From Scatophagus argus (lineage: Eukaryota; Chordata; Actinopteri; Scatophagidae): 64,000 bases of DNA. The translations under genes and the position numbers were made by a program. This document shows positions 12,204 to 64,000 of the stretch, piece by piece. Position 1 is the stretch's first letter; the number at the start of each line of letters is the position of its first letter. The notes below the pieces were generated by a model, which saw only the letters and a list, made by a program, of their open reading frames with translations, did no database searches and was not told the origin of the DNA. Location: contig NC_058498.1 of NCBI RefSeq assembly GCF_020382885.2, forward strand, positions 7,228,501-7,292,500, read 5' to 3'.

Positions 12204-12227
12204 ATGCAACCATGTCCTTGGCCCTGA
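12204..12227 (+). promoter_or_regulatory. Upstream ORF overlapping the mob3a start
   Basis: An out-of-frame ATG lies 8 bases before the mob3a ATG. It encodes only MQPCPWP and stops at 12225-12227, after the main start. Its context is weak (T at -3). Ribosomes that start there would read past the real ATG, so it could damp mob3a translation. Confidence 0.5.
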
Positions 12228-22988: not shown

Positions 22989-32643
<9,655 letters not shown>

Positions 32644-41500: not shown

Positions 41501-44500
41501 CGGCTGGCTGGAAGACAGCAGGGCAGGTAAGGACGGGGTCGACGAAGTCAGAATCGACCTGTCCAGTTTCCAGGATGATCTGGATTTTGACTCAGATCCC
41601 ATGGAGGAGTGTTTGCGGATCTTCAATGAATCAAAGGATGTGAAGAGGGAAGACAAGGGAAGGCAAGCCAAACAGGTATTGGAACTTCTTTCTTGCCGTA
41701 CTCCTGCACTGGTGTGTTTTTGTTTTTTTCATTTACCACGTGCTGAGTCATGTTTTATGAATTATCGGTTGGTGGGAAGGATTAATATGCCATGTTGTGT
41801 CCTCTCAGCCCTCCAGGGATTCAGAGGAGGAGAAAATCACAGAGAGCACTTTAACCACTCTCTTCCCTGGTCAGAAGAAGAGAGTCTCCCATTTTGTTGC
41901 CAAAGGAAGCGTAAGTTTGTCACTTTGACCTCACCCTGTTGTTGTAAGGATGCCTTTGATGGTCTTTTTGGACTGTTTATGGTAGCTTTATGAGAGCCTC
42001 AGTCGTGTAAATAATGAACGAAAAGTAGATGTTGACAGACACACTCCATAAAACGGCAAGTAAAGCACAAATGTAAGGGTGTTCAACTTCGTATAATGGG
42101 CTGTTTGTATTAGTTGATTTACAGTGATGTAATTGTGCACATAGCATACAGTCCTGTGGAATATCTGACCAGTCATGCTAATGTAAATGTGCATGCACAG
42201 TTTGGTACTTAACAGGTACATCGATAGACCACAGCATTAACACCACTGACAGGTGAAGTGAACAACATTAATCATCTGTTCACAGTGCAACGGGGGAAAC
42301 CTTGGTGTCTGGCAATGATGTGGCTGTTCTTTGACACTCACCACCCACCTAAACAATGCAGACAACGGCAACAGCTCTACCTGTCGGCAGCAGCATTAAT
42401 AAAATATGCTTCTTTTTTTATCAGAATGATGCGCCTTCCAAGTCTGTGGTGCGGCCGCAAAAGAGACTCACTGCGCAGGAGGTCTGCTTCCAGCGTATGC
42501 AGATGGCACAGCAGCAAGCTGCTCAACTTTCTGCTTCAGCCAAAGCTGCTTCACAAAGCTCCAGCCCCAGCTTTTCTGGAGAGAGGAAGAGAATAGCTCA
42601 CCGCCCCAACCCACAAATAACATCTTCTAAAACAAGTATGAGAGTCTCCACTACTGTAGCGGGAGTCAGCTCCTCTTTTTTTGCTTGACTATATCGCTGC
42701 TTTTCCCGGCTAATTTTTAATACGTTTGAGTGATAGTCTCCTTAAATAGATGTTATGGTCTCAGACTCTTTTCTCAGATTTCTATGAATGCAGCTGTTTT
42801 GACTGTTAGGGTAGAAAGTCACATGTATCGTGTGTGCCTGACTAGGCCCTGCAGATGTTAAACCAGCTGCTAGTCGAGTGCTGTCCCCCAGCCAGACCCA
42901 TCCAACTGTCAAGACCCAAACCACTGCCGGCATCTTGTCTAAAACCATGTCTACTGCCATGCAGAAGAGGGTGGCACACATGCCCACCATGAAGGTATCC
43001 GCTGGTCACAACATTTCATGCTATTGCATGTTTTTCTGAGTGTTTGTTTTTTTTCTTCTTGTGCCTGCACGTCCCTGAGTAATCGTGATGATTTATTGGC
43101 AAAGGTGGGCCACCTCTCTTAAGAGAAATCAAAAATGCATATTTTAACTCTTACCTGTAGGGCTGTTTATCTTTCTAGGATTGTTTTGGTGTCAGTTGCA
43201 GACTTTTGGAGATATCAGCTGTAGAGATTAGAAAAACTCAACAGCAATGTCTCTTTTCCAGAAAATCATGACCTGGTTACTCAAGAAAATCCACAGACCG
43301 ACTCTTCCTCGAGTAGATGCACGTTTCCTTTTTGGGCAGTGATAATAATATAGTTACTCCATGAATCTGCTTACAAAAGGGTGGGAGAGACATTGCCGTA
43401 GGGTTTTTCAGATGTATTTTTTGGCGCTTTGAGCACCACAAGCAAGGTGCCATCTAGTTCCATAATAATAGAGAGAAGGCAGATGTCTTCACATCTGATA
43501 TCATAATTCTGGGGTGAACTGACCCTTTAAAAGGGTGTAATTCACTGTCAGTATTTTTTTTCACTTTTTCAGAGCACTTCAATGAGGCGCCCCGTCATCC
43601 CCGCTGAGTTTGGGGCCAAAGTTCCCACCAACATCCGCCAGCGTTACCTCAACACTTTCATTGATGAGTGCGTCAAATTTTGCCCATCGGAGGACGCCGC
43701 CTTCCGGATGGTACAAAATATCACCCAGCTTTTACAACATGTTACCAGCTCTAATCTCATTCCGTAAGTGCTTCAGCTGAACAGGCTTTTAACAGTGACT
43801 AAGTGGGGTTTGACTGTTTCAGGCCCTGAACGAGGAGAAGCTGGTGTACGAGCGCAGCAGCAGTAAGAACATCTACCTCAACGTAGCCGTGAACACCCTG
43901 AAGAAGCTCCGCAGCCAGAGCAGCGCCTCTCCATCGCCTGTCACCAGTGTGTCACCTCAGTATTACACACAGTATTAGCTCTTAGCCGATATGTGCAGTG
44001 TGTTGTGATGATTTTGACACGCTGCGCAGTAAAATCAGTTTATGTCCTCACATGAACACAGTTGAGCATGAAAAATTATTTTAAGTGGTCGAACAGCGGT
44101 TACATGACATTTCGGTGGTAACTTTTATGTGTTTTTCTGCAGAAGACTCCAGTTTAGTTGCCAGGAGGAGGACCCAGTCCCACGAGGAGGTTCTGGGAGG
44201 CCGTCTCGCTGCTACAACCAGCTTCACTGTCAACAGGATGGGTAAACAGCAGGAGGAGAAACTGACGGGTAAGGGACAAGTTAGTCAGCACACTGAAAGA
44301 ATCTTTGTGTCAAGCAGAGACTTGTGACCTTTTGTTTGCTCTGTGATGTGTTTTGTCAGTTTACAGTAATAGTGAAACTGTTCATACACTCATGTGACAG
44401 CCACCGGGTTCTGTTTACTGCAGTGTCTCAACTCTCATGACCTGGTGCCAGAGACCAGAGGGAATATGTTTATTACACTGCAGGACTGCTGCAAGAGCTA

Positions 44501-47500
44501 CTGATAAACAGAAAATGAATAAATCTTCAATAGCAGTATGGAGCCCTTGCTGGTTACAGACGGTTTTTCAAAGGCCATTCACATTAGAATTTCATTATCT
44601 GAAAACTAGAGCTGATATGATCAACTGATCAACTGAAAGGTAATCAGTAATTTTTTTTGTTGATCAGTTATTTGTTTAGGTCATTTTTGGAGCAGAAATA
44701 CTTTGCTGTTTTTAAACTGAATATAATTTGGTACAGAACAGATTAACTGACCAGGAAAATATTAATATGTTGCAGCTCTGGTAAAAAATGTCTATTGGTA
44801 TCATCACTGACCAATGACGTGCCCATTTTATCTAGAAATAACGCTTTAAACGAACACGTGATGTGAACAGCTGGCTGAGGAGTTTTCTTATTTTGCTCAG
44901 TGAGTGTGTACATTTTGAAGATCAGATATCTGCACTTGCTAGGGGGCCGCCGTGATGACAGCAGGAGTGACGATCTGTTAACTCCACAGCAGGACAGACT
45001 TGATGTTCTCTGTAATTTGGTGGGAAAATCATGAGCACATGTCAGTATCATCATTGGCAAGCTGCAGCTCCGTGTTTATCGTCGATTATACCCGATACAT
45101 TTTGTCAGTGCATAGCAGGACTGTGCCATCATACAGGGGAAACGCATCAGGCTGACTCCATGAAATAAAACATAATAAATAAAATTAGAAAACAGTCTGT
45201 GACTCTAGCCAAGTGTTGAGTGCTTGCAATAGGTCATGTGGATAATTTCTTTCTATGTTTGTTTCTCCTCATGTATGTGGAGAAACAAGACAGACGTCAG
45301 CTTGTCTGAGCGAAGAAAACAAACAGTAAAAATCTGTTTCCAAGTTTTGTTTCTTCACTTCATTTTTAGTGGGGTTTTTTAAATTATTTTTATGACATCT
45401 CTGTACTTAGGCAACATTTGTTTTTCTTGTTGTTCTGTCTCGCTGTAGGAGCCACTCTGTACAGGAAGCTGAAGTCGTACCTGATGACGGAGGAGCAGCT
45501 CCAGGAGCACGGATACCCAAGAACCAACCCCGAGGCTGCAGGCAGAGCCATCATATACAACCTCCCGGAGAAAAAGGCCGTCTCAGACCGTGAGCGACGC
45601 CCCCACAGCTCTCTCTGTCATTTCTGAGGGCCGGCACTAAATTATGTTAACACTGGTTTATGTGGTCTAGCAGTTATTTAACTTTCAGCCGACTCTGTGT
45701 AATGTGTTTCCAGCCTTCAGCAAGATATGCTGTCGATGTGGAGCAGAATATAAGGTCAATGTCAACGGCAGCTGCGTACGGAAAGAGGAATGTAGTTTTC
45801 ACTGGGGGCGACTGCGCAGACAGAAAGGTAAGTTTGTTTGCATTTGTTTAGAGTAAATTGTCAGTGAAAATCAAAATCCGCCTTCTTTACCAAACTTTTA
45901 TTTTTTCTCCATCTCTGTTCGACTTTGTCTTCCCTGTCAGTCGCTGGAGGCTGGGAGACCAATTACAGCTGCTGTGCTGCATCAGTGGGCACGCCAGGTT
46001 GCCAAGTTTCCAAGGTACCACCCCGTTAGTTTTTCTTCTTTTCACTTTAACAAGTGAAAGTTATGGCTTAAGGGGCTAATGTAGAACAGGGGGCATTTTG
46101 GAAAGAAAATCTACTTTCAAACAGAAAACCGAACAGTGTAATGTAATGCAAGGCAAGTCAAAGGAGACAATAAAGCTTTAGAGGAAAGTTTAGTTTTGTG
46201 AAGCTCATAGTTTTGTCAGAAATGTTCATTCAGCTTGTGTCGACAAAAGAAACTTTTAAAACCTTGAATATTTTATACACATCTTAGTTACTGGTGCTGT
46301 CAGAAAGTTGACTAATAATTATCAGGTTGCTGCCTTCTCCCTTCACGCTTGTATATATTTTTCAGGGGTTGGTTTACATCATGTGTTATCATATTTACTT
46401 TGAGTTTTGCACATTATAATAAACATCCCTAGACTTAAAACATTTCATCTACCCACAGCAACATGTTCAGGATGGACGTAAAGAGTCATTAGACGGCTTC
46501 GTCACAACGTTCAGTAAAAGTCCCCCACCTGATGGCAATGGAGGGGTGTTTGCTCTGGACTGTGAGATGGTGAGTCCGACACAAGTTTCTGCTGAAACAG
46601 TAGCTGCCATCATGATCATGTTTGATTGGAGATTTCATTTGCTGTGGGCCAGTATAATACGAATGGGACATGAGAGTCTCTCTTTGCACAAATTTGGTTA
46701 TGTATGTTCCAATTCCAGAGTTTTATCATATTTTGTATTTAAGGTCGCATGAACTTGTTTTTCTCTCTTGTGAATGAATCAGTGCTACACAAAGCAGGGC
46801 CTGGAACTGACGAGGGTGACGGTCATCGACTCTGAGATGAAAGTCATCTACGATACTTTTGTCAAACCTGAAAGCAAAGTTGTTGATTACAACACGCGGT
46901 ACGTTTGTCTCTCGCAGGCTGACTCTGTGCGGGTCGTGTCTGCTTATGAATTAAACTGGCAATGAAAGTGACTGTCCTACATTTGTCTCTGAAGCAGTGG
47001 CACTATTGTAAAGGCAGCACACATCTGTATGTGCAGGTTTTCGGGTGTGACAGAGGAGGACTTGGAAAGCACCACCATCAGTCTGCGAGACGTTCAGGCC
47101 GTCCTGCTCAGTATGTTCAGTGCTGAATCCATCCTCATAGGACACAGTCTGGAGAGCGACCTGCTCGCTCTGAAGGTACCCACGTCTCTTCATTCATCTT
47201 TGTGACCTTTGCACATTAATGAACGCCCGCTATGAGTTCACACAACACTGAAGTCAAGCAGAGCAGTAAATCCTTGTGATATATTCTTACTTTAAAGGGA
47301 AAATCTGTTTATACGTTGGGTTTCATTTCCAGGATGAGACACCGAGTTTGTGCTGTTGAGCTGTTGGGATGATAAAAAAGAAACATACTTCATGTGGCCT
47401 AATGTTGTCTCTGTCTCTCGTACCTCCAGCTAATCCACAGTTCAGTCGTAGACACGGCCATTGTGTTCCCTCACCGCCTCGGCCTGCCCTACAAACGTGC

Positions 47501-49263
47501 CTTGAGGAACCTGATGGCCGACTACCTGAAACGCATCATCCAGGACAACGGTGAGAAAATCACTCAGAGCTAGCAGCAATTGATTTGTTGCTCTTTACAG
47601 GCTTTATGATAAGAGTTATGGGTATTATTATCCATTCATTTATGTCTTGACATATTAGCCGTCTGATGCATTTGTGTTATTTCATGACAATGCGTGATTA
47701 GTTGTGTGCATGCAGGCATTAAACAGGTCGATGCTGTGGTTGACCATGATAGCAAAGCTCAGAGAAACATTTTAACTGATGGGTGCAGAAATAATTTGAA
47801 ATAATTTGACTTCTTTTTTATTCCTCTGTATCCTGAGACTTGCATACAAAAAACAACTAAACATCAACTGATGGATCGTTATCAGTTAATCTTAACATGT
47901 TTTCATTGAAGCACAGCCTACAGAACCTTGCCTGCTAAGTTATTAGACATCAATAATCTTCTGGAATATATTAACTGTTAAATTAAGTCAAGTCAAAACT
48001 CCCTTACAAACTTCTGGGCAAAAAGCCAAAAACCGAGGATGAAGGTAGTCCTCGTTTGGACGGCTGGGGGAGACAAATGTGAAAAAAATCATCAGAAAGT
48101 TGTAAAAGTTAGTGGAAACATAGAAAAAACATCATTGCCTTTAACTGTAGAATTTTACAGGGTAGTAATAGTGATGTAGTAAATCCCGTATAAAGATGGC
48201 CAATAAAACAAGTCCCAGGAAAGGGTTCAATTAAGTGAGTCTAATTAAATTAAACTGAACTGCTATAAATTCAGACTCATAAATAATTATGTGTGGTGCT
48301 TCACATCATATCCAGGGGAAGCCAGTAAATCTGTCTGGTAGTCCTTGGTTAGTAGTTCAGTCTGGTCAATTTGTGCTCTTCTTCATTGCACTGCATGCAT
48401 GTGACCAGCAGGTGTCACTCATGCACACCGTGTCACCTGAAGCCTGAGTTTCAGTACGGTTAGCTGAAATGCCTGAAAGCTTTTCTGAACTTATGTGCCT
48501 GTTGATGATGTGTATTAAGATCTAATTCATCTAGCGCACGTGTGTCAAACTCAACTGGGAAAGAAAAGCAATTTGTTCATTACTTTAGTTCGTGACCAAA
48601 TACCTACAGAACCAGTGACTTTCCCACCTGCCTCAGCTGTACTTACTGTTTCGTGCTAGAAATTATCGGTCTGAACGATTATCGGATCCAGTATTCAGCA
48701 TTTTTCTGATTACAGATATCGGTGTATTTTCTGTCCGATTGCCAGTAAAATAAATCAGTTTGAACCCATCTTTGGTGTCGATGAAGATCCTGCCCGCAAC
48801 ACTAACTTGTTACATGAGTAATAGCCTATCATCAGCCAATCCATAAAGTAACTGGTAATAAAAGTCGTCAGAGAAATTGTGTGGGGTAAAGAATACAATA
48901 TTTGCCTCCAAAATGTAGCGTGATGGAAGTATAAAGTAGCAGAAAATTGAAATACTCACCTACAGTCCTTCAAAATTACAGTACAGTTCTTGAGAAACGT
49001 ACTTAGTTACATTTCATCAGTGGTTATTCTAAATTTTGACAGTTGAGTTTGATTTTCTTTGTTTTCGGTCTCCTTGGTCACTGATAATCATTGCTGATTG
49101 TTCAGCGCTGCAGTGTTCAGGTGTGTAAAAAAAAAACTAATAATAATTTCTGCAATTTGTTTGTGTGTTTTCAGTGGAAGGCCACGACTCGAGCGAGGAT
49201 GCGTCTGCCTGCATGGAGCTCATGATCTGGAAGATCAAGGAGGATGCGAAGGTCAAAAGATGA
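38599..49263 (+). CDS. rexo1: RNA exonuclease 1 homolog (Elongin-A-binding protein 1), complete, 16 exons
   Basis: Nuclear DEDDh-type 3'-5' exonuclease homologue that binds Elongin A. Exons: 38599-38788, 39796-41675, 41809-41910, 42425-42635, 42846-42994, 43573-43710, 43823-43946, 44143-44268, 45449-45589, 45714-45827, 45941-46014, 46459-46569, 46783-46898, 47037-47175, 47430-47550, 49175-49263; phases agree, 1274 aa (human about 1221). The N-terminus has a CCCH-like cysteine/histidine cluster (CPFYAEY...[10 protein letters not shown]). Exon 2 (1880 bases) codes a Lys/Ser/Asp-rich disordered region and [12 protein letters not shown] at about 569-580. A cysteine-rich segment (CCRCGAEY...HWGRLRR) precedes the nuclease. 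Catalytic residues: D1117 and E1119 in FALDCEM, D1200 in [10 protein letters not shown]1249 and D1254 in GHDSSED. All five are intact, so an active enzyme is expected. Confidence 0.96.
39425..39476 (-). mobile_element. 3' tail of a non-LTR retrotransposon, minus strand
   Basis: In rexo1 intron 1. Imperfect GATA repeats run into ACTTTATTGATCCCAAGG and GAAATTCA. The reverse complement (TTTCCCTTGGGATCAATAAA then TATC repeats) is a very common fish LINE/SINE-type 3' end. Confidence 0.65.
48830..49026 (-). repeat. Dispersed inverted-end repeat, minus orientation
   Basis: In the last rexo1 intron. GAATACAATATTTGCCTCC, AGTATAAAGTAGCAGAAAAT and a terminal ACTTAGTTACATTT match the reverse of the family's first half. 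Confidence 0.55.
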
Positions 49264-50358
49264 CCTCTGACCCCTCTCCTCAACTTTTCTCCGTTCCTGC
49301 CTTCGCGTCGGTCGCAGCGAGACGGAAAAGTTCAGGAGGCCTGCGCCTGCTTTTAGAGAGCTCAGGTCAACGTGTCAGGGGGAAAGTTGAGGTCAGATGA
49401 AAGTTTTCCACGGTGAAAGCGTGAGAGGAGGCTGCTGTGGTCACTGCCTGGGATGAATGAGAGAGCTGCCAGTCCCTTCGAAGCAACGAGAGCCCACATT
49501 AACAGTGTTTTCATTTGCTTATTGGTATTTCAGTTCTTAAAGATTACGTTAGTTTAAATGTATTTCTGTTTGTTCGAGCAGTGTCCTATAAGGCCTCAAA
49601 AATTTTATGAACGAAACCTTTCAATAGAAGAAAAATGAACAATGATGGATGATGAGATATTCTTGCCGGGCTGCATCTTCAGCCTTAATTGCACTATAGA
49701 AATGCTCTTGTTGTACAGGGCCCAAGTCTGAGTACCTCATCCGTGTTACAAAGCAGTCACTTCTAATGAATAACATGTTACTTAGTTATCCACTTAAGTG
49801 CATTGACGTCTTAGTCTGTTCAACTTTGCTATGTAAATGCACTCGTGCTTTTCACTTTGCACCTCGTTTCCTGTCACTGACGCTCTGTTCACGTTGCGGT
49901 TCTGGCCGATCTGATGGCTGATCTGTTGACTGGCTCTCACACCCAACTAATCCTATAATACTTGATCATATAAAATACCCTCAGCAGAAATGTAAAGTCT
50001 CTTCTGCTACCTGTTTGGTATAGCCAATGGAATATATCACTGTATTTTATAGTTGAGACTGACTATATCCACGATGCGTCTGTGTCATGTTCACTGCATG
50101 AGGTAAAACAACAGGAATCATTGTGATAGCTGGTATCACATGGTGTTACTCCATAAAAACACAGAAAATTAAGTTCAGTACTTGAATTAAGTTTAGGTTA
50201 TGAATTACAGACGATTATCATTTAGCGAGTACCAGCTAACCTGTGCTGTTTTATGTTGGAAATGACTGAAAAAAAACATACTTGAGTGCTGTAAATACGC
50301 TGTAAGCAGTTTCATTTGTATTTGTTCTTTCTTTTTTTTTGGTTGTTTATCTTTTTCT

Positions 50359-50364
50359 ATTAAA
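50359..50364 (+). terminator. rexo1: Possible rexo1 poly(A) signal ATTAAA
   Basis: The first common poly(A) hexamer I noticed after the rexo1 stop, about 1.1 kb downstream. The actual 3' end could use a weaker signal earlier. Confidence 0.25.
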
Positions 50365-50444
50365 AGGTATAAGTTAAAAGAGGTTGTTGCTGCGTCTTGA
50401 CGTCTCCACAGTCCCCATCTGCGCAACGGTCGAAAAAGCAAACT

Positions 50445-50690
50445 TAAGTTATTTTTACTCAAGTAAAGTACAATCCTGAGATTTTTGTGCTTCCATTTTA
50501 TGGTATTTTGTACTTCTACTCCACCAGGCAGGAAGACAATATAACAGACAGCCAATGCAGATTCATGAAAAGGCTAAGATGAGCTTAAAACGAGAGGGAA
50601 ACACTTGTAATACAAAACAAAATGTAATGCAAAATCATATTGTGTACTTTCTACAGTGCTACATTTATCTGTCAATTGTAGCTACTGCTT
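50445..50690 (+). repeat. Dispersed inverted-end repeat, plus orientation
   Basis: ACTCAAGTAAAGTACAAT, TTTTGTACTTCTACTCCACC and GTGCTACATTTATCTGTCA follow the family order, with an unrelated stretch of about 120 bases in the middle. Confidence 0.5.
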
Positions 50691-50869
50691 AACTGGTGAA
50701 GTAAAATTTTACCCACAAAAAAAGAAAAAAAATGTGTATCAAATGCTGCATGCTGGGATGTCTGCTAATGGGCTGATCGTGTCACTTAAGAAACCGGACA
50801 AGTTAAGTGAAGTCTCGGTTGTAGATTCATTTAACTCATTGTCGTATCGTAGTACTGCCCTAGTATCAC

Positions 50870-51000
50870 ACTTTAGTTCTCAGAACGTTTTGAGAACGTA
50901 GATTCAGGGTGCAGTTCCCTGAACGTTCCCCTGACGTCCCTTGATGTTTAGGTTTCCGTATAACCATGAGGGAACGCCGCCTTCCCGTCTTGGTTATAAT
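50870..51000. repeat. Degenerate GAACGTT-type repeat
   Basis: GAACGT occurs at 50883, 50894 and 50921, with GTTCTCA/TGAGAAC (50876-50882 and 50891-50897) forming an inverted pair. TATAACCATGAGGGAACG and TTGGTTATAATG follow. It resembles the GAACGTT-rich repeats of several fish genomes. Confidence 0.4.
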
Positions 51001-51884
51001 GTTATATATACGTTTCTGTGTTACTAGTGTGAAGTGGTCCACACATAAAGCGAGAAGTTTAAATGACCTTCAAATTAATACTCACTTCTGAAAGTATATC
51101 GTGCTGATGATGCTTTCACTCCGGGGCTTACGGTCGTTAACGGGAGTTTTCTTGCACTGTAGCTTTTGCTACCTCTGCTGCACAAATAGTTTTTGACAGT
51201 GTGACAGCTTTTTCTGCGCACTGCGCTGGGCCTCTTGCAGTCTATATGTCCCTTTAACAGCAGGTGCAGCGACCGTAATTCTCCTTTCTTCGGCAGATGT
51301 GTAAATTGGAAAAAAAATGGGAGAGAAACGCTAAAGTGAGAGGCCCATCTTTTCTTCGTTGTGTTTGCCCGTTAAGCTCCACCCGTCACATGTCAGTATG
51401 CATTTCCCCAGGCCGGGCCACAGACCCCAGGTATTAAAAGAGCCAGTTAGCTGGGATCAATACCTACACAATGTTGCAGTGACAGGGAGGGGGGCTTCCT
51501 AGTGTTTATTGAGTGTTGCAGAGATTTTGAGCATGTGGAGCAAAGCAGCTTAGAGGGGTCGTCTTCATTATCAAATTCGATCAGCGCCTCTCTTTTTCTC
51601 TCCCCCGTGATCACCTTTGACTAGTGGGGGTTACGAGGGGTGGGGTGGGGTTGGGGGGAGCTGCGAGCCGGGGCTCTGAAACCGACCCCATGCTGAGAGA
51701 TGGAGAGCTGCATTATCTCTGCGAGAGCCAAAGCAAATGAACACTTTGCTGCCGACTTCCTGAATACACTGAAACTATTAGTCGATCTATTGAATTTGTC
51801 AGCATCTATTCTGATTATGGATTGATCATTAAAAGAGACCTCAAATTTCCTGGCTAGAGCTTCTGTTCTGGGTCCAGATGTGAA

Positions 51885-51966
51885 GTGTAGTAGGTTCTTA
51901 GGGCATCTGGACTTGTTAGGGTCTTAGGGACCAGGGATCCTAACATGCTCTAAGAACCTACTACAC
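51885..51966 (+). repeat. Long near-perfect hairpin (inverted repeat)
   Basis: Arms 51885-51906 and 51945-51966 are 22-base inverted copies differing at one base. In a + strand RNA that mismatch becomes a G-U pair, so all 22 positions can pair. Inside, GTTAGG (51915-51920) pairs with CCTAAC (51939-51944), leaving an 8-base bulge and an 18-base loop. A 12-base direct repeat, GTCCAGATGTGA, flanks it at 51872-51883 and 52005-52016. It could be a miniature transposon or a small structured RNA; neither is proven. Confidence 0.6.
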
Positions 51967-52931
51967 AGACCATGACCTGGATGACTGAGAACCTTCATCG
52001 ACATGTCCAGATGTGAGCAATTCTCGAGTCATTTGCCAATTATCTCCTTGATTTATCATCAGGAAAAATAAATTCTCAGAACCAAAGCCGATGTCTCTTG
52101 ATGTCTTTTTTTGTTCAACCATCAGCTCTAAACCCAAAGACATTCAGTTTACTAGAAGACAAATGAAAGTCACAAACCAGAGAAGCTGACACCTGCTGAT
52201 GTCTGGCATTTTTGCTTTAAAAATGACTAAGACCTCTGATCGGTTATCAAACTAGCTGCGGATTCATTTTCCTTCAGGTTATTTGACCGGTAACTTCAGC
52301 TGTCGAGGTGTTGAGGAAAAGGCTGTTCATTTGTTGCAGCCTTTAATAACTCATTGTAGGTGACGCAATCTGCAGACATCTTTCAAAGTAAAAGATTTTA
52401 AACTTAAGAAGATGGAAGAAAGTGCGTTTGAAGAATCAGTGTACATCAGACAGAAAACTTAAAAGACAACATGTATCTGTAAAAGGTAAAATCTTCCCAG
52501 ACCGGTCAGTCGAAATACAAGGAAAAGAGCAAGAAGACTGAGAAAAACTGAGAAAATGTGATATGCTAAATATGAGAGTGTGGTGCTCAGCATCTCTTCT
52601 CCATCCCACTGAAAGCCTGCATGTTTACCACATTAAATGTACTCATTTTTCTGCTCTCGGTGGCTCCTCTTCTTTATTTTTCACTGTGTAACTTCATTCC
52701 TCTTCACTTTGGATGAAACTCAAACTTGGCTTGGAAGTGGACCAAAATCTTTGTTTACACAGTTCGTATAATCGCTGGGCCTTAAAAGCCGGTGCTGAAA
52801 AGATGATGGCTTAAAAGGGCCAGGGCCTGTTTTCTCTCTCTGTTGGTCTTGAGTTCGCCGCTCGCACCCCAGTCCTGCCCACTGCGGGTGCGCCCTTGAC
52901 CCTCAGGACATCCACAGCTGCCTGTCCTGCG

Positions 52932-52949
52932 CTCTCTCTCTCTCTCTCT
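52932..52949. repeat. (CT)n microsatellite
   Basis: Nine CT units. Confidence 0.8.
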
Positions 52950-52969
52950 GTCTTTACTCTATAGCTCTC

Positions 52970-53110
52970 TCACCCAATTAAGTGCCTGATCTTTACTCAG
53001 TCCCCTCATATTGATCTGCTGCTGAGGCTGCTTATTGCCGTGCTCCCAGGGGCAGCACAGGAGATCATAAGAAGCTAATTGGAAGGCAATAAGTCTGTAG
53101 GTCTTATGAA
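52970..53110. promoter_or_regulatory. Candidate conserved non-coding element
   Basis: Balanced-composition block between repeats with homeodomain-type cores: CCAATTAAGTG near 52975 and GCTAATTGG near 53075. No open frame. Proposed from appearance and position only. Confidence 0.2.
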
Positions 53111-53290
53111 GAAGGGAGTTATGAGATCCTAATGGGTTTCCTCACAGTTGTGGCTGTTGTAGAGCAATAAAATCACACTGATGGATTGGTTTTAAGCTTT
53201 TTGTGGCGGACATAAAATGATCTTCTCATTTAAATTCTGCTTGCTGAGCCAAAGCCAACTGTGGGTGTGTGTATGTTTGAGATCCTTTTT

Positions 53291-53310
53291 GTGTGTGTGT
53301 GTGTGTGTGT
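53291..53310. repeat. (GT)n microsatellite
   Basis: Ten perfect GT units. Confidence 0.85.
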
Positions 53311-53349
53311 ACTTGGTGTGTTTGCAACCGGGTCAATGTCACTCTAAGC

Positions 53350-53870
53350 CCTGAGTGTGTCATAGCCGGTGTCAGGACTCACAGCGTGATCCCGGCACTC
53401 AGAAGGGCTTAAGAAGGCCGACTGACCTGCCGCCTGCTCTCCCTGTCTCCCTCAGGTCAAAGGCCAGCCGGCCCTATCGATTCCCCCATGAAGAAGAAGT
53501 CTTTTGCTCCTCCGCCTGCTCTCCCACCTTCAGGCCCACATGCTCCCGGACTATCAGCGTGGCCCCAAAAGGCCTCTCAGTTGTGTTTTGCATGCCAATC
53601 GATCTGGTTAGTGTCCAGGGGGGGGCTGCCTTTGAGATAACTGACAACTACAAAGGTCCCCTCCTGACAGATCCTTGTCAATACAAATTTCCACTATTGA
53701 TAAGTAATTAAAGAAAGCCTGAACATAAGGGGAGTTTGCCGTCTGAAGCATCTGTTAAACAGGAGACATTAACAAAAACGTCCTGGTGACAAAAGAAGAA
53801 GACAATGACAAAAGATTAACCGTCCCTCCGCCCTCACTTTCTTTTCTTCAACTTCCTCCCAGTTTATCCA
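53350..53870. promoter_or_regulatory. Candidate conserved non-coding element
   Basis: GC-richer block of about 500 bases amid AT-rich sequence. It contains two ATCGAT cores (CTATCGATTCC near 53475 and CCAATCGATCTGG near 53597, Onecut-like), GATAAGTAATTA near 53700 and SOX-like ACAATG near 53803. A 118-codon frame across it has no recognisable domain. Confidence 0.25.
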
Positions 53871-55299
53871 AGGAGGGTTGAATTAAATTATTTAAATATG
53901 ATGCCAGAGGATCCACAAAACATATCCTGATTTGGTCAACAACTGATTTGGTTTTGTTCGTTGTTTTTTTCCCCTCACTGTTCAATAAATTTATCAGCAG
54001 TTCTAAGTACGTTTTTAAAGCATAAATGCTAGAAAAATAGCTTGTTCAAACTTCTGAAAGTTCCATCTTAATTTGCTGTTGTTCTTAATCTGTCTAATAG
54101 TTTGTGTTGAACAGTTAGTCATATGAAAGACGCAACTTGAGGATGTCACCTTATCTTTACAAATTTGCGATAAGCATTTTGAAACCAAAACAAACAGTCC
54201 GGAGAACAAATGGCAGATCAATCAATGATGAAAATCATTTATTTAGGCCCGTGTTTTGCTTTTTCAGCGTCATGTTATCGAATCGTTTTATTAACTTTGG
54301 AAGCTTGTGAAACCTAAAAACATAACTGACATCACATCTTTTGGTTGCACCACCTGATGAATTGCCTTTTTTAAATTTTAGGTTGTAACTACTGGCTTCT
54401 TACTGGTTGATAAATAATGTATTAAAGCTTTAAAGATCTGTAATGAGTCATTAATCCGTATAATTTTGGACTTGTCAAATTATGAAAAATCCGATTTGCA
54501 CATGTTTTTGTTTACCATTGCAATAAATGTTGGTAATCCTACAGTGAATACTCATCAGGGTTCTCACTTTCTAATTAAGTTCATATTCACAGCTTTTAAC
54601 CATCAAGTTTGCAGTTGTGAGTGTTAATGTCGTGTTGGCAGCCTGTCTCTGAAAATGGTCAAACCAGTCTAAGGGATTTTTCATAATCTGGCAACCTGAA
54701 AGTTGTTCTTGTTAATTCTAAACAGATTAGTAAATGATTCTTAACCTTTAATGAAGACATTAGTTAGAACTTAATTGCCTCTTTAACAAAACTCCTGGTA
54801 TGAAATGTTTTTGCAGCAGCAGCACAGAAACATACGTGACAGAGCTTTTATTAGCTAAACTTTCACAACTGCACGTTATTTGAAATCAAGCAGGATAAAG
54901 AGTGAAGTGACGGCGACGTTGCTGTAATTCCCTCTGCTGCATGTGACAGCGGTTATTAAACCTGTGCAGGTTTTCACCTGCTCTTTGGGGAGACTGTTGC
55001 CACTGGTGTGACTTTGCCTTTTGTCTTTTATTCACTTTAATCCATGCATGTGTAAGTGGATCCTCTGAGAGCAGGATAACTCCTTTTAAGCAGTTTTAAA
55101 CACTACAGGAGAGACTCAAATCCAGCAACTTCTCATTTACCTCTGCACCTAAGTCTTTAATGTAAAATACTCACATCGTGGTGATTAGACCTGCTGCACC
55201 AATGACTGTTTCTTACTTTGAACTCACAATACTGCTGATTAACTTCAGGGCCAAATGGAATATGATGTGAGTGTTGTTCAGAGCTCGCCTGTTGTTGTG

Positions 55300-55700
55300 G
55301 GAATGTGAAGATGGAGCGGTTTTCCATGACTGGGAATTGAGGAGCTAATTGAAGAGGTCATTACTCCTTTAGACTGAATCCCGGTGGACTTGAAGGGTAG
55401 GAGGTGAACCCGGCCGAGCCCTGCCTGGCCTGCAGAAGGGGAAATGATCTGGGGGTGGGGGTGGTGGTGGTGGGTTGGTGAGTGAGTCAGTGGTGGCTGC
55501 TCTGGGATGGGGAGGGTCACACACAACCACACTCTTTGTGTGCCTCTAATCCCCCCAGCCAACACAGCTTTGGCCAGGTTTCATCATGAAAGTGCCATGA
55601 AATAACTACTTTTTTTCTCTCCTCGCAGTAAATCTCCCCTAATCCTGCGGGCTGCGGAGACAAAGGCCTCTGGGACCTAATCCTGGAGCTTTTAGTGGAG
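55300..55700. promoter_or_regulatory. Candidate enhancer with three TAATCC sites
   Basis: TAATCC, the preferred core of K50 homeodomains (Otx, Pitx, Gsc, Dmbx class), occurs at 55547-55552, 55640-55645 and 55678-55683, i.e. three in 137 bases. GCTAATTGAAG lies near 55343. About 2 kb upstream of a K50 homeobox gene, this could mediate Otx input or autoregulation. Confidence 0.3.
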
Positions 55701-56099
55701 CTGAGGGGCTGGCCGACAGAGCCTCTTCTAAATGACTTATTTCTATCGGACACTAATATAGCTTGACAGCCAAGAACAACGAAAGGAGGAGGAGAAAAAA
55801 AAAAAACCAGGAGGGGAAAAAAGTGCACAAACATTTTCACATATTTTGGAAGTTTGAGCAGCTGAGCACAAGTGTGAGAGGACGACGTGGACCGAGGTGA
55901 TTTGTGCACAGCCTCCAAGTACACAACACTCAGGACATCTCACATGCTTATCTGTGAATACTCATAAAATATGAAGTCACTTGTTTACATGTGGCTGGTT
56001 GGCGTGCAGGAATGTACCTGTGGCATCTTATTTTGCATCAAAATGTGTTTGCTGGATGAAGATGTGAAGTGAAACGACTCTGATCACAAAGACTGTGCA

Positions 56100-56830
56100 A
56101 CAAGTTGTACTCACTGCAAGACTTTTTATTTTGTGTACAATCACATTTAAATAAACTTAACGAGAAGACATCTAGAAAATAGAAATCTGTACTCAGAAGC
56201 TTTACGTAAAAGTATAAATACCACAGTGTTGTAAGCTTAAACTGTAATGACATATGATACTTTATTTGTTGATTTGTCTTTATATTATTAATCTGAACCT
56301 GCAAAGTAATTGGGTTAATTTGTATAATATTCACCTCTGAACGGTAGTGGAGTTGAAGTATAAAGTGGTAGAAAATGGAAATAGAAGTACCTCAAAATTT
56401 AACTTAAGCACAATGCTTGAGTACTCAGCTACTTTAGTAAAAGTAGCAACGGCACCCAGAAAAGTAAAATGTCTTAATTACAAATTGCACTTAATTAGTA
56501 TACTTAAGTAATATTAGCAATATGGTGTTATGTGTCCATAGTGAGAGTGCAAAATGGTGCATTTCAGATTATTTAAACATTATCCTAATGCATTAATGTG
56601 TGAACAGTGTTTTCATTTAGCTGCTGGTCATTTCCATTTTCTGAGAATTTTAAGGACTCATCCTTGCTGGATCAAGAAGATCTATAACAATACATCATAT
56701 TTTATATGCTTATAGATTTTGAAGGTAACGTCTGAATCTACAAAGCAACTACTGATTCTATCTGTCAGATAAATGTAGTAAAAAGTACTTAATTTGCCTC
56801 TGAAATGTGGTTAAGTAGAAGGAAAACGAG
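56100..56830 (-). repeat. Dispersed inverted-end repeats, minus orientation, in pieces
   Basis: GAAGTATAAAGTGGTAGAAA, GAAGTACCTCAAAATTTAAC and TTGAGTACTCAGCTACTTTA (about 56350-56450), and AGTAAAAAGTACTTAATTT with GCCTCTGAAATGTGG (about 56775-56815), match the reverse of the family. Probably two insertions or one broken copy. Confidence 0.5.
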
Positions 56831-57430
56831 GCCTAAGGTGACACTAACACTAGATGAAATACTTTACTTTAAGTCTCCTATTTAGCATCCATAAGCAGTA
56901 TATAAACACTTCATAAATGGTTTAAAAACACTATAATGTAGTGACAAGCAGGTGCAAGTGTTTCATAAAGACATAATCAATGACAATATAGTTAAACCAC
57001 TGTGTAATAATATAAATTACGTCTATGGAAGTCTGACAAATTCTTTACATTTGTTAAAACACTTAAAAATGTCCATACATCTGCATTATAGTGTGTTTTA
57101 AATGATTAACATTTTGTGGCTATAGTCTGAGTAACCTCAGCAGCTCTAAAAAGCACTAAATTTAGCTCAGTTTTGCACCATTGGAGCCCGGCTCATAGTG
57201 GAGCGCTTCATTTGGCTGGTTTCGCTCGATTCGCTTTTCTCTTCCTGGGAAGGCTTCTAATTTAGCTCAGCTGGATCTTAAGAAATTGTTCTCATTGAGC
57301 AGCTTTCAGATTAACTTCACACGGTGACAGTTTATAGGCAAAATATGGTGCCTGTTAGCAAAACAAACCCTTAGAGAAAAACCCCCTCTGAGGGGAGGCT
57401 GTCAAAGCCAGCGGTATGGGAGAAAGAGGA

Positions 57431-57724
57431 CCGAGAAGGAGAGCACAATCAAAGGCTGTTATTTTAATCTGTCCTGCCTCGGAGATTAGTCCACCACATT
57501 GTTTTAATTGTTTTAACGGGAGGGAATGAAACGCTCGCTTATGGGAGGGGGGTCCTTGGCATAAATCTCTCAAGTTCAATAGTTTCAAAAACTTGAGCCC
57601 CTTGCAGCCCCCCTCTATTCCCTCATCCCACCTAATCCCGGCTAATACCTTTCTTTCTATTGGCTAATGGCTGAGGGGAGCCTGGGTAAATGCTTCTTAA
57701 ATAGTCGTGGGTGAGAATGGTTTC
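57431..57724 (+). promoter_or_regulatory. Proximal promoter of the Dmbx-type gene
   Basis: Contains a TCF/LEF-like AATCAAAGG (57448-57455 region) overlapping a SOX-like ACAAT, two ATTGTT sites near 57498-57511, one TAATCC (57643-57648), an inverted CCAAT (ATTGG, 57659-57663) and a TATA-like TTAAATA (57697-57703). The last would place the start near 57725-57735. SOX/POU/Otx-type input would suit an anterior neural gene, but single motif matches are weak evidence. Confidence 0.4.
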
Positions 57725-57861
57725 GGAGAATTAGATCTGTGCCACGACGTGGATAATAAGGCCCAAACCGGACTAGGACATACCGGACTACAGCTCACCA
57801 AGGTCGACCGCTGTGCGTAAAAGCGCCTCTGGATCTCTACTGCTCAGGGTCCGGATCTCAG
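57725..57861 (+). other. Non-coding first exon of the Dmbx-type gene
   Basis: Starts about 25 bases after the TATA-like box and ends CGGATCTCAG before a donor (GT at 57862-57863, gtaaac). It would splice to the acceptor at 58288-58289. No ATG in the exon was noted. Confidence 0.45.
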
Positions 57862-58296
57862 GTAAACGGGACATTGAAAAAACAAAAACCAAAACAACCA
57901 CCCTGCATGGACAGGAAAGACTTTAACAATGTTTTCATCACGGAGAAAACCCGTCCTCATTGTGTGATGGGCATCAATGAAATCTGCTTTTTTTAAAAAA
58001 AAGTTTAAAACGCTGCTTTTGTTGCTTTAAAACGCAAAACATCAATCAGCTCATAAAATACAGAGATAACAATCTGAACAGTGGCTAGAAAATAAATACG
58101 TTAAAACAAATACATTAAGGAGCTTTGTCTCTAATAGTGACCAATGTGTCGCAGCAACAGCTTTGATTATTCAGTCTGCAGTCATTGGTGGCTTGACGCC
58201 GTAAATTTAGTCGTTACTGAGTGTTTGAGGAGAAAGTTTGCCAACAGGACTGCATCCCTCAGTCGGGTTTTTGTTTTCTGTGTCCTCAGAGTGAGT

Positions 58297-60535
58297 ATGA
58301 ACTCGTTGAATTTCTGCGGGACGTCCGGCGGTGTGGCGTATCCCCTCCCCGGTGTTCACTCCGTGCTGTTCGACCTGCACCACCAGATGGCGGAGCAGTA
58401 CCACGTTTACTCTGCAGCCGGCCCCGCAGTGCACACCCTCTCTGTGGCTGAGAGACTGGCAGGTAGGCGGGCCGCCCTGGTCCTGGTCCTGCACTGGACC
58501 AAACACTTCACACACACGGGTGAATGAGAAACTGGAGTTTAAGCAGTTTTAATTTTAGTTTAAAAAAAACTAAAACCCAGTTCAGGTGCCTGTTGGTTTA
58601 ACACATCCAGGATTATGCTATGACAAATTTTAACATGTGACCAGTAAAATACAGTGAAACTCTTCTATACTGTACAAGTAATTCATTCAGATCCAAGAAT
58701 AAAAATAATCAACAGATCAATCATGATGCATTGTTACAGATTAAGACTTTATTGGTTCCCCCAATGGATATATTTAAACCAATAATTATAAATAATGCAG
58801 TAATATAATGCAACACATTATTCTGAAATGGCCTATTCTGAGTGATGAGCACTTTCATATTTGGTGCTTTACTATAGTTGGATGCTTCTACATTTAATTC
58901 AGTAAACATTTGAATATGGTACCTTTACTTTATGTCTACAGGGATTTAATCATCGAGCAGTGTATAAATAGTGTGTATAAATAATGCACTAAATTGGTTT
59001 TAAAAGGACTCAGCCTCAACCAGCCTGTCCCAGCATTGCAATGCTGCTTACAAATTAATGCATTTTGTTGCATTAATTTATTGATTATAGCTACTCATGG
59101 ACCACTCAAGAGAAATTATAAATGCTGGACTTGTAATGGTTAAGTGTGGTGCTGCTACCCTGATTTAAGAGAAGACAACTCCTGCTGATGTAAAACCTGC
59201 CATGATTTTATACTCTGCAGATTTACATCAGAAAGAAGGTCTAAAATCAGCCCAAACTGAGCCTATCCAGGTCAAAACCTCCCATCCAAGACAGAAAAAC
59301 AAAATGGAAACATATGGGGGGGAGAGCTTCTCCCGTCATGCTTCTTGTTACATGTTGTTGTTGAACTTGCTGTTGACTCAGAGTATATTTTTGTGTTGAC
59401 ATTTGTGTGTGTGTGTGTGTCTCTTTCTGTCCTGCCAGAGCTTATTCTGGAAGCTCGCTACGGCAACCAGCAAAAGCAGCGCCGCAGCCGCACGGCGTTC
59501 ACTGTGTCGCAGCTGCAGGCTCTGGAGAAAGCCTTCCAACAGACTCAGTACCCAGATGTCGGGATGAGAGAGAGGCTGGCCGTCTGCATCAACCTGCCCG
59601 AGGCTCGTATTCAGGTGAGAGCGCACACTGCCTGACTTTGAACAAGCTGAAACCAATTATTCAAGTTTGCAGCTGTTAATTTAAAATAAGCATTAAGCTG
59701 AAAAGCATGAATAAAACCCTGCTCCATTTATTAAAAATTCTCAGACATGTAAGTTTATTAGGAGGAAGAAAGTGGATGAGATGAATCTTAGGAAAGCAAA
59801 TACTTTAATATACATTGTTGTACATACCTGAATATGTATATCAATATACACTGTCTTTTTAATGCATACTTTCAGCTCATTTTTCAGTTAAGATTTCAGT
59901 TTATGTTTCGCTGTACAAAGCTTTTCTTATCTGCCTCTTTGAGCATCGTTATGTTCTTTGTTTTATGATGTGTGAGCGATTAAATGTTTGTAAAGTACTT
60001 CACCTGTTTCCTCATCCAGGTGTGGTTTAAAAACAGGAGGGCAAAGTTTCGAAAAGGTCAGAGGTGCTCCCCACCCTCCAGAGACCACAGTCTGGAGGAG
60101 GCGCCACAACACAGCAAGGAGGGACAGGACGAAGGCGGGGCCGAAGACAAACAGGACATCACTGCATCACACATCAGCAACAACATGCGTCTTCCTCGCT
60201 GTCCTCCTCCTCCTCCTCCTCTTGTGGATAAAACCAAGGATGTTTGCCCACCTCTTGCTCCTTCAGACTCTGATCTTTCACGTTGCTCCCTCCGAATTCA
60301 CTCTCCTCAAGTTTTCCCCTTCGCGACGGGGGAGCACTACAGCCACCCACCTCACCGGCCGGTGGTGGGAGTCTTGTCCTCTGATCTCGCCCTCCCTCCG
60401 GTGTTCTGGCCTGTCATACAGCAGCCCAACGCCGCTGTGGGGTTTCATCCATCGTCAGTTGCTAAAAACTGTAGCCTCTCCCTTCTGACTGCTTGTTCCA
60501 ATAAAAGTGCGCCTCACCCTCACCTGGGGCTGTAA
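58297..60535 (+). CDS. dmbx1-like: Dmbx-family K50 paired-like homeobox protein, 3 coding exons
   Basis: Sequence-specific nuclear transcription factor; DMBX1 acts in midbrain/diencephalon development and can repress Otx2-driven transcription. Exons: 58297-58462, 59439-59614, 60020-60535, phase-consistent, 285 aa. The N-terminus matches DMBX1 in order: MNSL start, a DLHHQMAEQ segment, and [20 protein letters not shown] just before the homeodomain. The homeodomain ([19 protein letters not shown] ... [12 protein letters not shown]) has Lys at position 50 and, from memory, differs from DMBX1 at about 11 of 60 sites. The C-terminus is short (human DMBX1 about 380 aa), has a six-proline run and no visible OAR motif. 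ATG 58297 is favoured by similarity and by the acceptor at 58289; an in-frame ATG at 58144 would matter only if that splice is not used. Confidence 0.85.
58560..59200 (+). repeat. Dispersed inverted-end repeat fragments in the homeobox intron
   Basis: GGCCTATTCTGAGTGATGAG (about 58830), CCTCAACCAGCCTG and ATGCTGCTTACAAATTAATG (about 59010-59060) match internal blocks of the fish element family, but not in their usual order. Two nested or rearranged copies are likely. Confidence 0.45.
59404..59420. repeat. (GT)n microsatellite next to a splice acceptor
   Basis: About eight GT units end 18 bases before the acceptor of the homeobox exon at 59439, within its pyrimidine-tract region. Confidence 0.8.
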
Positions 60536-60963
60536 CTGTAGACCAAACACCTATAGCACAAGGTCTTTGCTCCTTGTGGGATGAGGTACGCCTGAAGCAA
60601 CCCTGTGTGGGAAAAGAAAGGATAACAAGGTAGAAAAGCACTTATGGCCTTGTTCCTGTAAACCTGACTGCAGACAATGTGGAGAAGGAGGGTTTCTCTG
60701 AGCTTTATTGAGTGGAGGTTAAAGCTGTACAGTCTTCAGAGTTTATTTTTTTTATTTTGCTGACCAACTCTGATTGTTTTTTTCCACTTGACTTTGCTTG
60801 AACAAGGTTGTAGTTTTGTTTCCAGACAACAAGCAGTAAAAAACACATTTAAAGACGCCGTCGTCTCCACTACATTACCAACTAGCCACATAGCAGTAAT
60901 GATGGTAAACACATGTGAGAGAAATTCCTTATTGTAAGTAGGCACTTCAGCACAGAAATGTGA

Positions 60964-60969
60964 AATAAA
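60964..60969 (+). terminator. Poly(A) signal of the Dmbx-type gene
   Basis: AATAAA about 430 bases after the stop, followed by T/G-rich sequence. Another AATAAA (60500-60505) lies inside the last codons of the frame and would truncate the message if used. Confidence 0.55.
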
Positions 60970-60999
60970 ACTATTTGTGCCTGGATTCTCTGTTGTTCT

Positions 61000-61900
61000 C
61001 TCTTGGTTTTTGTGTGATTTAGTTGTGTAGGATGGGTTTCACTCACTTTTGACACATCTAAAAGACTGCAACAGAAAGATAGATTACTTGTACTCAAGGC
61101 AAAGATACAGACTCTTTGATGTAAGATATCAACAGTGGAACTGTATTGCAGTGATATGATCATGATCCACATGTAATCACTGGGGTCTGTGCAATCATTT
61201 TATATCTGATTTTGGACATTTGCCAGGCAATAATATATATCAGTATTGGGAACATATTGTTGTGACGTTGATTTCATGGCATTACACAATCCCAATTGGA
61301 TGTCTGTGAAGTTCTTTTACATTTAAAAATATATATATATATCTTTTGGGTGCACTGTCAACAACAACTTAAACATATTTTACATGGGCTTTGGTGTTTT
61401 GGGATATAGTATATTAGTATATTAGTATTTAAATCACCGGGCCAGGGAGGGAGACATTAATAAGCTTTCATGTGACAGAGACCAAACATTAGAAGGTTTA
61501 CAGGACTATGAAGTAAGTTAGGGTTTTAAAACTCATCAAAATCCCTCCTCAGTGAATAAGTGACATAGCTTATGTTTGTCAGTCCAAAAACCTAAAAGTT
61601 ATCAGTGCAGATGTAACAGTCATAACTTTGAACAGATCCGTGGCATAAAATGATCACTTTTAAAGATATTTAGGACAATAATCACCTATTCTGTGTCAAA
61701 TCAATAAAGTATGAAAAAATTATGTTGCACACGTTTACCGGGTTGCAGATGTTTGAACGCCTTTCACAAAATCGTAGCGTCAGTTCTAACAAGGCTGCAA
61801 CATTTATCGGCCAATTTAAAGCGGCTGCTGATTGAGCTACGCAAGCCTGATGTTTTGTCCTATTCCCCAAACCAGTTGCGTAAGTTTTTCGGAGTATTGC
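61000..61900. other. Spacer after the Dmbx-type gene
   Basis: AT-rich; includes a short (AT)n run near 61331-61340. No gene, RNA or clear mobile element seen. Small open frames on both strands near 61700-62000 have no recognisable features. Confidence 0.5.
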
Positions 61901-61914
61901 AGTGGTGGGAGGCA

Positions 61915-62055
61915 GCGTGACGCTGTGCCTCAGTATCGGCAGCTGAGGGAGGCTTAAAGAGACAACAGCAAAATCATAGCAACTTGGGGGAGAGAAAGAT
62001 ACCCACGAACGAGGAACCATGACTTCGACTACATTTCACTAGCAGGAATTTAAAG
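61915..62055 (+). other. Putative non-coding first exon of a gene continuing past the window
   Basis: GC-richer stretch ending TTTAAAG before a donor (GT at 62056-62057, gtaaca). The only ATG (62019) opens an eight-codon frame (MTSTTFH, stop at 62040-62042), so the coding start must lie in a later exon outside the window. The CpG-containing DNA downstream resembles the first introns of mob3a and mknk2. The gene cannot be named. Confidence 0.4.
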
Positions 62056-64000
62056 GTAACACGCTCTCCTTTGGCAACAGATGTGTATTACTGGCTGTTG
62101 TTTTGTTAAAGACACCATCTCGCCGTACGTTAATATTCGTGCTAATGTTTCGTGCGCTAACTTGCTAACTGGCTAGCTAGTGAGCTAAGCAGTAAGAGAT
62201 CCCTGGCTGCCAGTCGGTTGTTTAGGATTAAGGAGTTGCCCGGCAGTGCTCGGGATAATGGCTCTGGCTGGGATCTGAACACCAAACGATACTCTCAGGT
62301 GAAACAACGATCCATTTTATTGTAACGTTACTTCAGTCAATGACATTAAGTAATTACAACGTCGCTTGGGACATTGTTATTTGTCAGTTATTAAGCATTT
62401 ACTAACTAACAAGGTTAATGTAACGTTAGCATAGGATATGTCAATCAATGAATATTTCATGTTCTGTTCTGTTTGGACTTGTTCAGTTTGCATTAGTTCG
62501 ATAACGATTAACTGGCTTGTGTTCTTATGGTACAGTGTTATTAACAGATTAACGTTGCTAACGTTACATGTTAGGTTAGCTGGTTTTCATAAGGCGTTGG
62601 GCCAAGTGGAACCGTGTTTTTGGTAGGTGCTAGCTATGGTATCTTAACACTGCTGTGTGACATTTTGGTTTAACACTATCGTTAGCTTCAACATGAAGCT
62701 ACTCTATATTAATTTACAATTAAGACTGCAACTACATTGTACCCGAAACCGGTTCAAACGAAACAAATTGGCTACGATTGAAGCTCAAGCTAACTTGAGC
62801 TTGCTAACTAACGGCAAGATAGCCTGAGAGTATCTGGCCTTGTCCGCCGAACCAGCTAGCATAGTTTAATGTTAGGCTGTTGAAGACACCTATCGACGGG
62901 GCTTTCTTCTGTAAGATTTCGATTTCCTTCCTTCCTTGTAATGGAAAGCGAACTTCGTGCTATCAAAGAGAGGATGTTGGCAATAACTACTTTGAATCAC
63001 CCGAAAAACTAATGCGAAATGACAGCTGCCAAGCACAGTTCGGTAGTACGCTATTAGCTTTATTATAAGCTCCAAAAGGCAGCTATTCTGTACCACGACA
63101 GGGAAAACTTGTCAGTCTGGTCAAGGTACTAACGTTTATTGTCAATTGAGGTTGTACTTTGGTAGTTGGATTCTTATTCACAACGTTTTAAATCGTCCTG
63201 AGCCGTGTTATCTCTGTTACTGTATTGACTACAATACTGGAGCAAGCGGACGGTAGAGCCACAGTCTACCCTCGGATTTCGGTTTGGCCAGGCATCGTGC
63301 ATAATTTCGCCACCACTGTATTTTTAAGAGCTCCCTCAAAACTTGAAATGTATGAGTACTTACTCGCTAAGTTTTAACAAGTTGGTAGCCATAACAAGCA
63401 GCTAGCATAAAAAAAACAATAGACACTTCCTGAAATGAGGCAGTCTAGACATATGACCTAGGAAGCCTAAAAGTTATTTAGATCTATGTTGTGTTCTCAT
63501 ATTCGGATATTAAGTCGCGTTTGTTTTAAATGTATACAGTTGTTGGGGTGGGGGTCATCTTGGCAAATGAAGTGCGTGCCATAATACACGTTGTGATTAT
63601 TTCTCACTTTTAGGTTTTACTCACCTTGTCCATTGTACTTTCAATCTTGTGACCAGGTAGGCTGGTGTAATCTTTTACAGCAAATATCGCTATGCGTCAT
63701 GCTATGAGGAAGACATGATGACAGTGTAATGATTGACTGTACATCTGGCCTTTGAAAGTGTTCTTTTTCTCAGACCTGCTGATTGCTTTAGACTTACATA
63801 TTATTTTGCCCGTGCATTTTAGAGTTTATGGTGTATTTAGAATGTTTCGGGCTTCAGCTACTGTATTTTCAATATAGCCGTGCAAGAAAATATTATCTCC
63901 CCCTTTATTTGTGGAATAAACTTTGTGCAGACCACTTTACAATCACAAATGTCTCATGTGAATGATTTTAATAAATATTTTGTTTTACCTTATCGTTGTT
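62056..64000. other. Probable first intron of the gene starting near 61.9 kb
   Basis: No coding exon recognised to the window end. The first 800 bases are rich in GCTAAC/GCTAGC-like words, including TAACGTTAGC at 62421-62430. A perfect 9-base inverted repeat, AAGCTCAAG/CTTGAGCTT with a 4-base loop, sits at 62781-62802. Confidence 0.4.

Follow-up and report, generated by a model that had tools for sequence, protein, structure and literature searches.

A second Dmbx gene beside mknk2 in the fish Scatophagus argus, very probably an ancient duplicate of dmbx1

The 64,000-nucleotide stretch of Scatophagus argus contig C6 analysed here (C6:7228501-7292500, the window) carries an intact homeobox gene, dmbx2, which is very probably an ohnolog of dmbx1 from the early vertebrate genome duplications (1R/2R) and thus a second Dmbx gene of vertebrates. 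This reading draws most strongly on synteny. In the proposed history, an ancestral block mob3-mknk-dmbx would have been doubled in 1R/2R to give the daughter blocks mob3c-mknk1-dmbx1 and mob3a-mknk2-dmbx2. The teleost duplication would later have copied dmbx1, found here on C6 and C13, while dmbx2 is found singly; DMBX1 would have been kept, and DMBX2 lost, in humans. We infer the 1R/2R timing of the dmbx split and the loss in tetrapods from a comparison within one genome, that of Scatophagus argus.

The coding exons of dmbx2 lie at 58297-58462, 59439-59614 and 60020-60535 on the forward strand, from the ATG at 58297 to the stop codon at 60533-60535, and encode a product of 285 residues. Its two introns, 58463-59438 and 59615-60019, both have GT-AG borders. 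The first coding exon as a whole is placed at 58290-58462, its start predicted from an acceptor AG at 58288-58289; it carries the N-terminal Dmbx motif and ends in a phase-1 donor. The second (59439-59614) holds the ELILEARYG motif and homeodomain positions 1-46 and ends in a phase-0 donor, and the last (60020-60970) holds homeodomain positions 47-60, including K50, a C-terminus lacking OAR, and the stop. An AATAAA at 60964-60969 (forward strand) is the putative polyadenylation signal. Upstream, a 5' noncoding exon is predicted at 57725-57861 (forward strand; donor CAG/GTAAAC), with its beginning as the presumed start of transcription, and the sequence has a putative TATA-like element, TTAAATAG, at 57697-57704 on the same strand. 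Pfam recognizes a Homeodomain in the protein (E 2.9e-22), with a sub-threshold Homeobox_KN match overlapping the region. The homeodomain is of the paired type, with WFKN at positions 48-51 and therefore lysine at position 50, and the contact residues R5, K50, N51 and R53 are retained.

Three Dmbx loci stand apart in the genome. The search covered 570.7 Mb in 48 contigs, with the first 138 residues of dmbx2 as query and the best 150 of 233 candidates scored. Among the 142 matches listed, the window gene is accompanied by C13:15251608-15251814 (71%) and C6:15386823-15387008 (75%); the next eight loci by E-value reach 44-56%, and no other match listed exceeds 60%. A match to coding exon 1 by itself occurs, among the same 142, only at the window gene. 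Across 46 homeodomain columns dmbx2 and dmbx1 are identical at 36 (78%), and dmbx1 shares at most 64% with the other loci of the set. The N-terminal motif AERLA..ILEARYG is present in dmbx2 as in both dmbx1 copies, and the introns, one after AERLA (phase 1) and one before VWF (phase 0), agree with dmbx1 in both phases; the use of this motif and of the AERLA intron as family features derives from the C6 and C13 dmbx1 genes. The sequence-only reading had described a gene with the DMBX1 N-terminal signature, a K50 homeodomain and matching exon phases, and the three-coding-exon structure bears this out.

A homeodomain tree was less informative. It had 14 rows and 46 columns, with one dmbx1 row standing for two identical copies; L009 and L010 (from the window) and L011 and L012 (dmbx1) were omitted, and L003, L005, L006 and L008 were absent because they gave no match at E 1e-3. 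The row nearest to dmbx2 by path is dmbx1 (0.25 vs 0.62), on a branch without significant support: the clade of the two has an AU p of 0.44, and among the starred sets, which comprise at most half of the rows, none contains dmbx2. The tree lacks significant support near dmbx2 because dmbx1 hardly changes. Otx-like genes are K50 genes with an intron at homeodomain position 46/47. These points would suit an origin from a different paired-type K50 gene, of Otx or Gsc type, but such a gene would have to match dmbx1 at 36 of 46 homeodomain columns, where other loci stay at or below 64% to dmbx1, and also share the AERLA..ILEARYG motif and both intron phases. We give that alternative next to no chance; at the sequence level, the resemblance of dmbx2 to Dmbx is far above chance.

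The neighbours of dmbx2 are ordered mob3, mknk2, rexo1, dmbx2, all on the forward strand, as Pfam, matches to solved structures and the genome search agree; the claim that dmbx2 shares its strand with mob3a, mknk2 and rexo1 was thus correct. The mob3 gene has two coding stretches between 12212 and 14225, the second of them (13996-14225) placed from a DNA match; its first 140 residues match Pfam Mob1_phocein (7.4e-43), and it is 73% identical to the other MOB3 locus, C6:15440011-15440430. None of its 18 solved-structure matches named a MOB3, and the labels MOB3A and MOB3C are applied because of the adjoining kinases, mknk2 and mknk1. The kinase gene occupies 24022-32541, with ends taken from DNA matches to mknk1, and has MKNK2 as its best solved-structure match. 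For rexo1 (39771-47570), the joined exons at 43.6-47.6 kb contain EloA-BP1 (9.3e-49) and RNase_T (3.2e-05) by Pfam and include the best genome match; a 740-residue frame at 39771-41990, in which no Pfam family was found, is given to rexo1 by position only. Ahead of mob3, on the same strand, lies a ZAP70-type tyrosine kinase gene (1796-2200), with putative further exons, read by eye, to about 8690; its first SH2 exon scores 266 bits to ZAP-70 vs 197 to SYK.

A second block, at 15.387 Mb on C6, has mob3, mknk1 and dmbx1 on one strand, in the order and relative orientation seen in the window. In reverse-complement coordinates of the 100 kb examined, mob3 lies at 5571, mknk1 at 11140-13603 and dmbx1 at 58630-60535; the corresponding window positions, all on the forward strand, are 12212 for mob3, 24244-32108 for mknk2 and 58297 for dmbx2. 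Between mknk and dmbx lie 26 kb in the window, where rexo1 intervenes, and 44 kb in the dmbx1 block. Across the genome, MKNK and MOB3 each have two strong loci, and each block contains one MKNK and one MOB3 locus; the dmbx1 locus on C13 has no mknk or mob3 in the 80 kb examined. The sequence-only reading had proposed a DMBX1 ohnolog in an MKNK2/MOB3A block. It had also held that absence of a separate dmbx1 next to mknk1 and mob3 in the same species would count against this. That dmbx1 is present at C6 15.387 Mb, and the proposal gains support from the colinear block and from the orthology of the kinases.

Compared with solved chains that we take to be human, the kinase in the window reaches 508.8 bits with MKNK2 but 462.1 with MKNK1; for the kinase of the dmbx1 block the scores are 491.3 with MKNK1 and 448.7 with MKNK2. 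Each kinase is thus reciprocally closest to its own namesake, and the duplication of the block therefore predates the split between fishes and humans. This age is shown for the kinases; from the matching positions we infer that the dmbx genes parted in the same event. An exon of mknk1 (L041, C6:15426001-15436000) encodes the catalytic loop HRDLKLEN, vs HRDLKPEN in mknk2 of the window.

Both mob3-mknk-dmbx blocks lie on one contig, at C6:7.23-7.29 Mb and C6:15.35-15.45 Mb, 8.1 Mb apart. Taken alone, this could suggest an intrachromosomal copy, but the kinase orthology argues against a recent one; the shared contig perhaps reflects fusion or rearrangement in fishes.

The two dmbx1 copies provide a measure of what a teleost duplicate looks like. 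Each has four coding exons, joined from the genome, encoding 391 residues on C13 and 395 on C6. The C6 protein has an OAR motif (Pfam, 1.7e-05), and the C13 protein carries the identical OAR sequence at its end. The copies differ from each other at none of 60 homeodomain positions and are identical across 77 core residues, vs 11 differences of 60 in the homeodomain and 14 of 76 aligned core residues between dmbx2 and dmbx1, with one residue deleted before the homeodomain in dmbx2. The homeodomain is, as had been remarked from the letters of the window, more diverged than would be expected of a recent teleost duplicate, and dmbx2 by these counts appears unlike a recent copy of dmbx1.

A third copy of dmbx1, made within teleosts (3R or later), evolving fast and rearranged to a place beside mknk2, would also appear diverged. 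The homeodomain tree is compatible with such a copy, dS fails to separate dmbx2 from the dmbx1 pair, and the window shares its contig with one of the dmbx1 genes. This explanation is nevertheless unlikely. Its new site would have to be the paralogous one, 26 kb beyond mknk2, with the order and strand that dmbx1 has 44 kb beyond mknk1. In addition, dmbx2 shows no affinity for either dmbx1 copy: of the 38 ungapped columns that distinguish the two, it has the C13 residue in 9, the C6 residue in 8 and another in 21. Nesting of dmbx2 inside dmbx1a or dmbx1b has no support, although the 46-column homeodomain tree, without significant support either way, would be compatible with it. Dating by dS was rejected, as all three pairs, the dmbx1 pair included, are near saturation (NG86: 1.37 between the dmbx1 copies, 1.16 and 1.30 between dmbx2 and each of them; YN00 returned a value for one pair only).

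Noncoding sequence also argues against a third teleost copy. Apart from the dmbx1 coding exons, the two dmbx1 loci have 13 same-strand matches in common. Of these, 11 are colinear (10 without the match at 72450 in C6 reverse-complement coordinates, whose C13 partner overlaps that of another match), and none of the 13 was found in the window at E 1e-5. These 13 elements of the C13 and C6 dmbx1 loci (L023-L028, L030-L035) are candidate enhancers that would have persisted from the teleost duplication onwards, and may include exons of other genes. Compared directly with the dmbx1 loci, the territory of dmbx2 (47600-64000) yields five matches that reach E 1e-5. The homeodomain exon accounts for one of them, in C13 only; the matches at 56735 and 48787 are a repeat with further copies in the window; and that at 48595-48651 is single and weak (57 bp, 79%). 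The fifth joins 58764-58915, in a dmbx2 intron, to a point 11 kb past the C13 gene (L023; 65%, E 3.8e-9), 89 bases from a copy of that repeat, and could be either a repeat remnant or an old element common to both loci. Copies of one diverged interspersed repeat occur in the window at 2477, 4003, 16849, 48787, 56311 and 56735, with further ones in L023 and L036.

The preferred reading, a retained 1R/2R ohnolog, concerns a gene that lacks part of the dmbx1 architecture. No OAR motif was found in the dmbx2 protein by Pfam, even at E 10, and a search of the 64-kb window with the last exon of dmbx1 for a hidden OAR exon found none (best E 1.4). The terminal exon of dmbx1 has no counterpart in dmbx2, whose C-terminus is divergent and poorly conserved. 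Both features, the absence of an OAR exon and the weak conservation of the C-terminus, would be expected of a pseudogene or decaying relic without function in this fish, but 285 codons are open over three exons with canonical splice sites, the DNA-contact residues are kept, and core dN/dS is low: dN is 0.114 against dmbx1, vs dS of 1.16-1.30 (NG86), which suggests constraint. Moreover, a zebrafish gene named dmbx2 is listed with genes whose expression falls with age in the brain of telomerase mutants (PMC12686574). A functionless relic is accordingly very improbable.

The retained residues permit some prediction of function. K50 homeodomain proteins, Otx and Dmbx1 included, target TAATCC-type sites. 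Because Dmbx2 retains R5, K50, N51 and R53, we expect it to be a sequence-specific transcription factor that binds sites of this type. By analogy with Dmbx1, it is most likely a repressor acting in a neural setting; Dmbx1 is described as a repressor (PMC2954992, citing Kimura 2005), and the same article states that cells of the midbrain and retina need it to leave the cell cycle. With the OAR exon and the elements common to the dmbx1 loci both missing, the control and expression of dmbx2 are expected to differ, and the comparison suggests altered control relative to dmbx1. Four TAATC[CT] sites, the K50 homeodomain target, lie upstream of the predicted start between 57308 and 57638 (at 57308, 57465, 57483 and 57633; no strand assigned). 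The stretch 57300-57760 has four such sites; when the window, this stretch included, is cut into 138 non-overlapping pieces of 461 bp, 1 of them has that count. The stretch was chosen after inspection, so the count is a lead only. Tentatively, and at somewhat less than an even chance, Dmbx2 would be the missing second Dmbx of the jawed-vertebrate ancestor, lost toward tetrapods, which may act outside the midbrain and retina programme of Dmbx1 and compete with Otx and Dmbx1 for TAATCC sites.

If dmbx2 is a kept ohnolog, some of what Dmbx did ancestrally may now fall to a gene absent from mammals, and knock-downs of dmbx1a and dmbx1b in fishes would leave a related gene in the background. Dmbx would also be a third family added to the MOB3-MKNK paralogy block. 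Expression of Dmbx1 has been used in arguments on the origin of the vertebrate midbrain, and teleosts have at least two paralogs, dmbx1a and dmbx1b (2010; PMC2954992). According to the hagfish genome paper (PMC10972751), Dmbx acts in cranial neural crest and lacks a 1R or 2R paralogue of similar function. A catalogue of human homeobox genes lists DMBX1 as the sole Dmbx gene, at 1p34.1 (PMC2211742). Novelty is lower than the sequence-only reading supposed: the zebrafish gene zgc:101100 is already named dmbx2 in a 2025 paper, which has it down-regulated earlier in the ageing tert-mutant brain (PMC12686574). In the results seen from the open-access literature, outside which most subscription journals lie, no account that treats a vertebrate Dmbx2 as an ohnolog was found. 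The kind of gene is thus known, and named in zebrafish, and its origin seems little described.

Among known systems, the arachnid Dmbx2 (PMC6107062) is likewise a second Dmbx gene in a setting of genome duplication; it belongs to another phylum, probably arose by an independent duplication, and has the name alone in common with the fish gene. Zebrafish dmbx2 (zgc:101100) is alike by name and most likely the ortholog of the window gene. The closest comparison is with the C6 and C13 copies of dmbx1. They differ from dmbx2 in having a terminal exon with OAR, another C-terminus, and a place in an MKNK1 rather than an MKNK2 block with no rexo1 in between; they share with it K50, the N-terminal motif through to ILEARYG, two intron positions with their phases, and a position downstream of mob3 and mknk.
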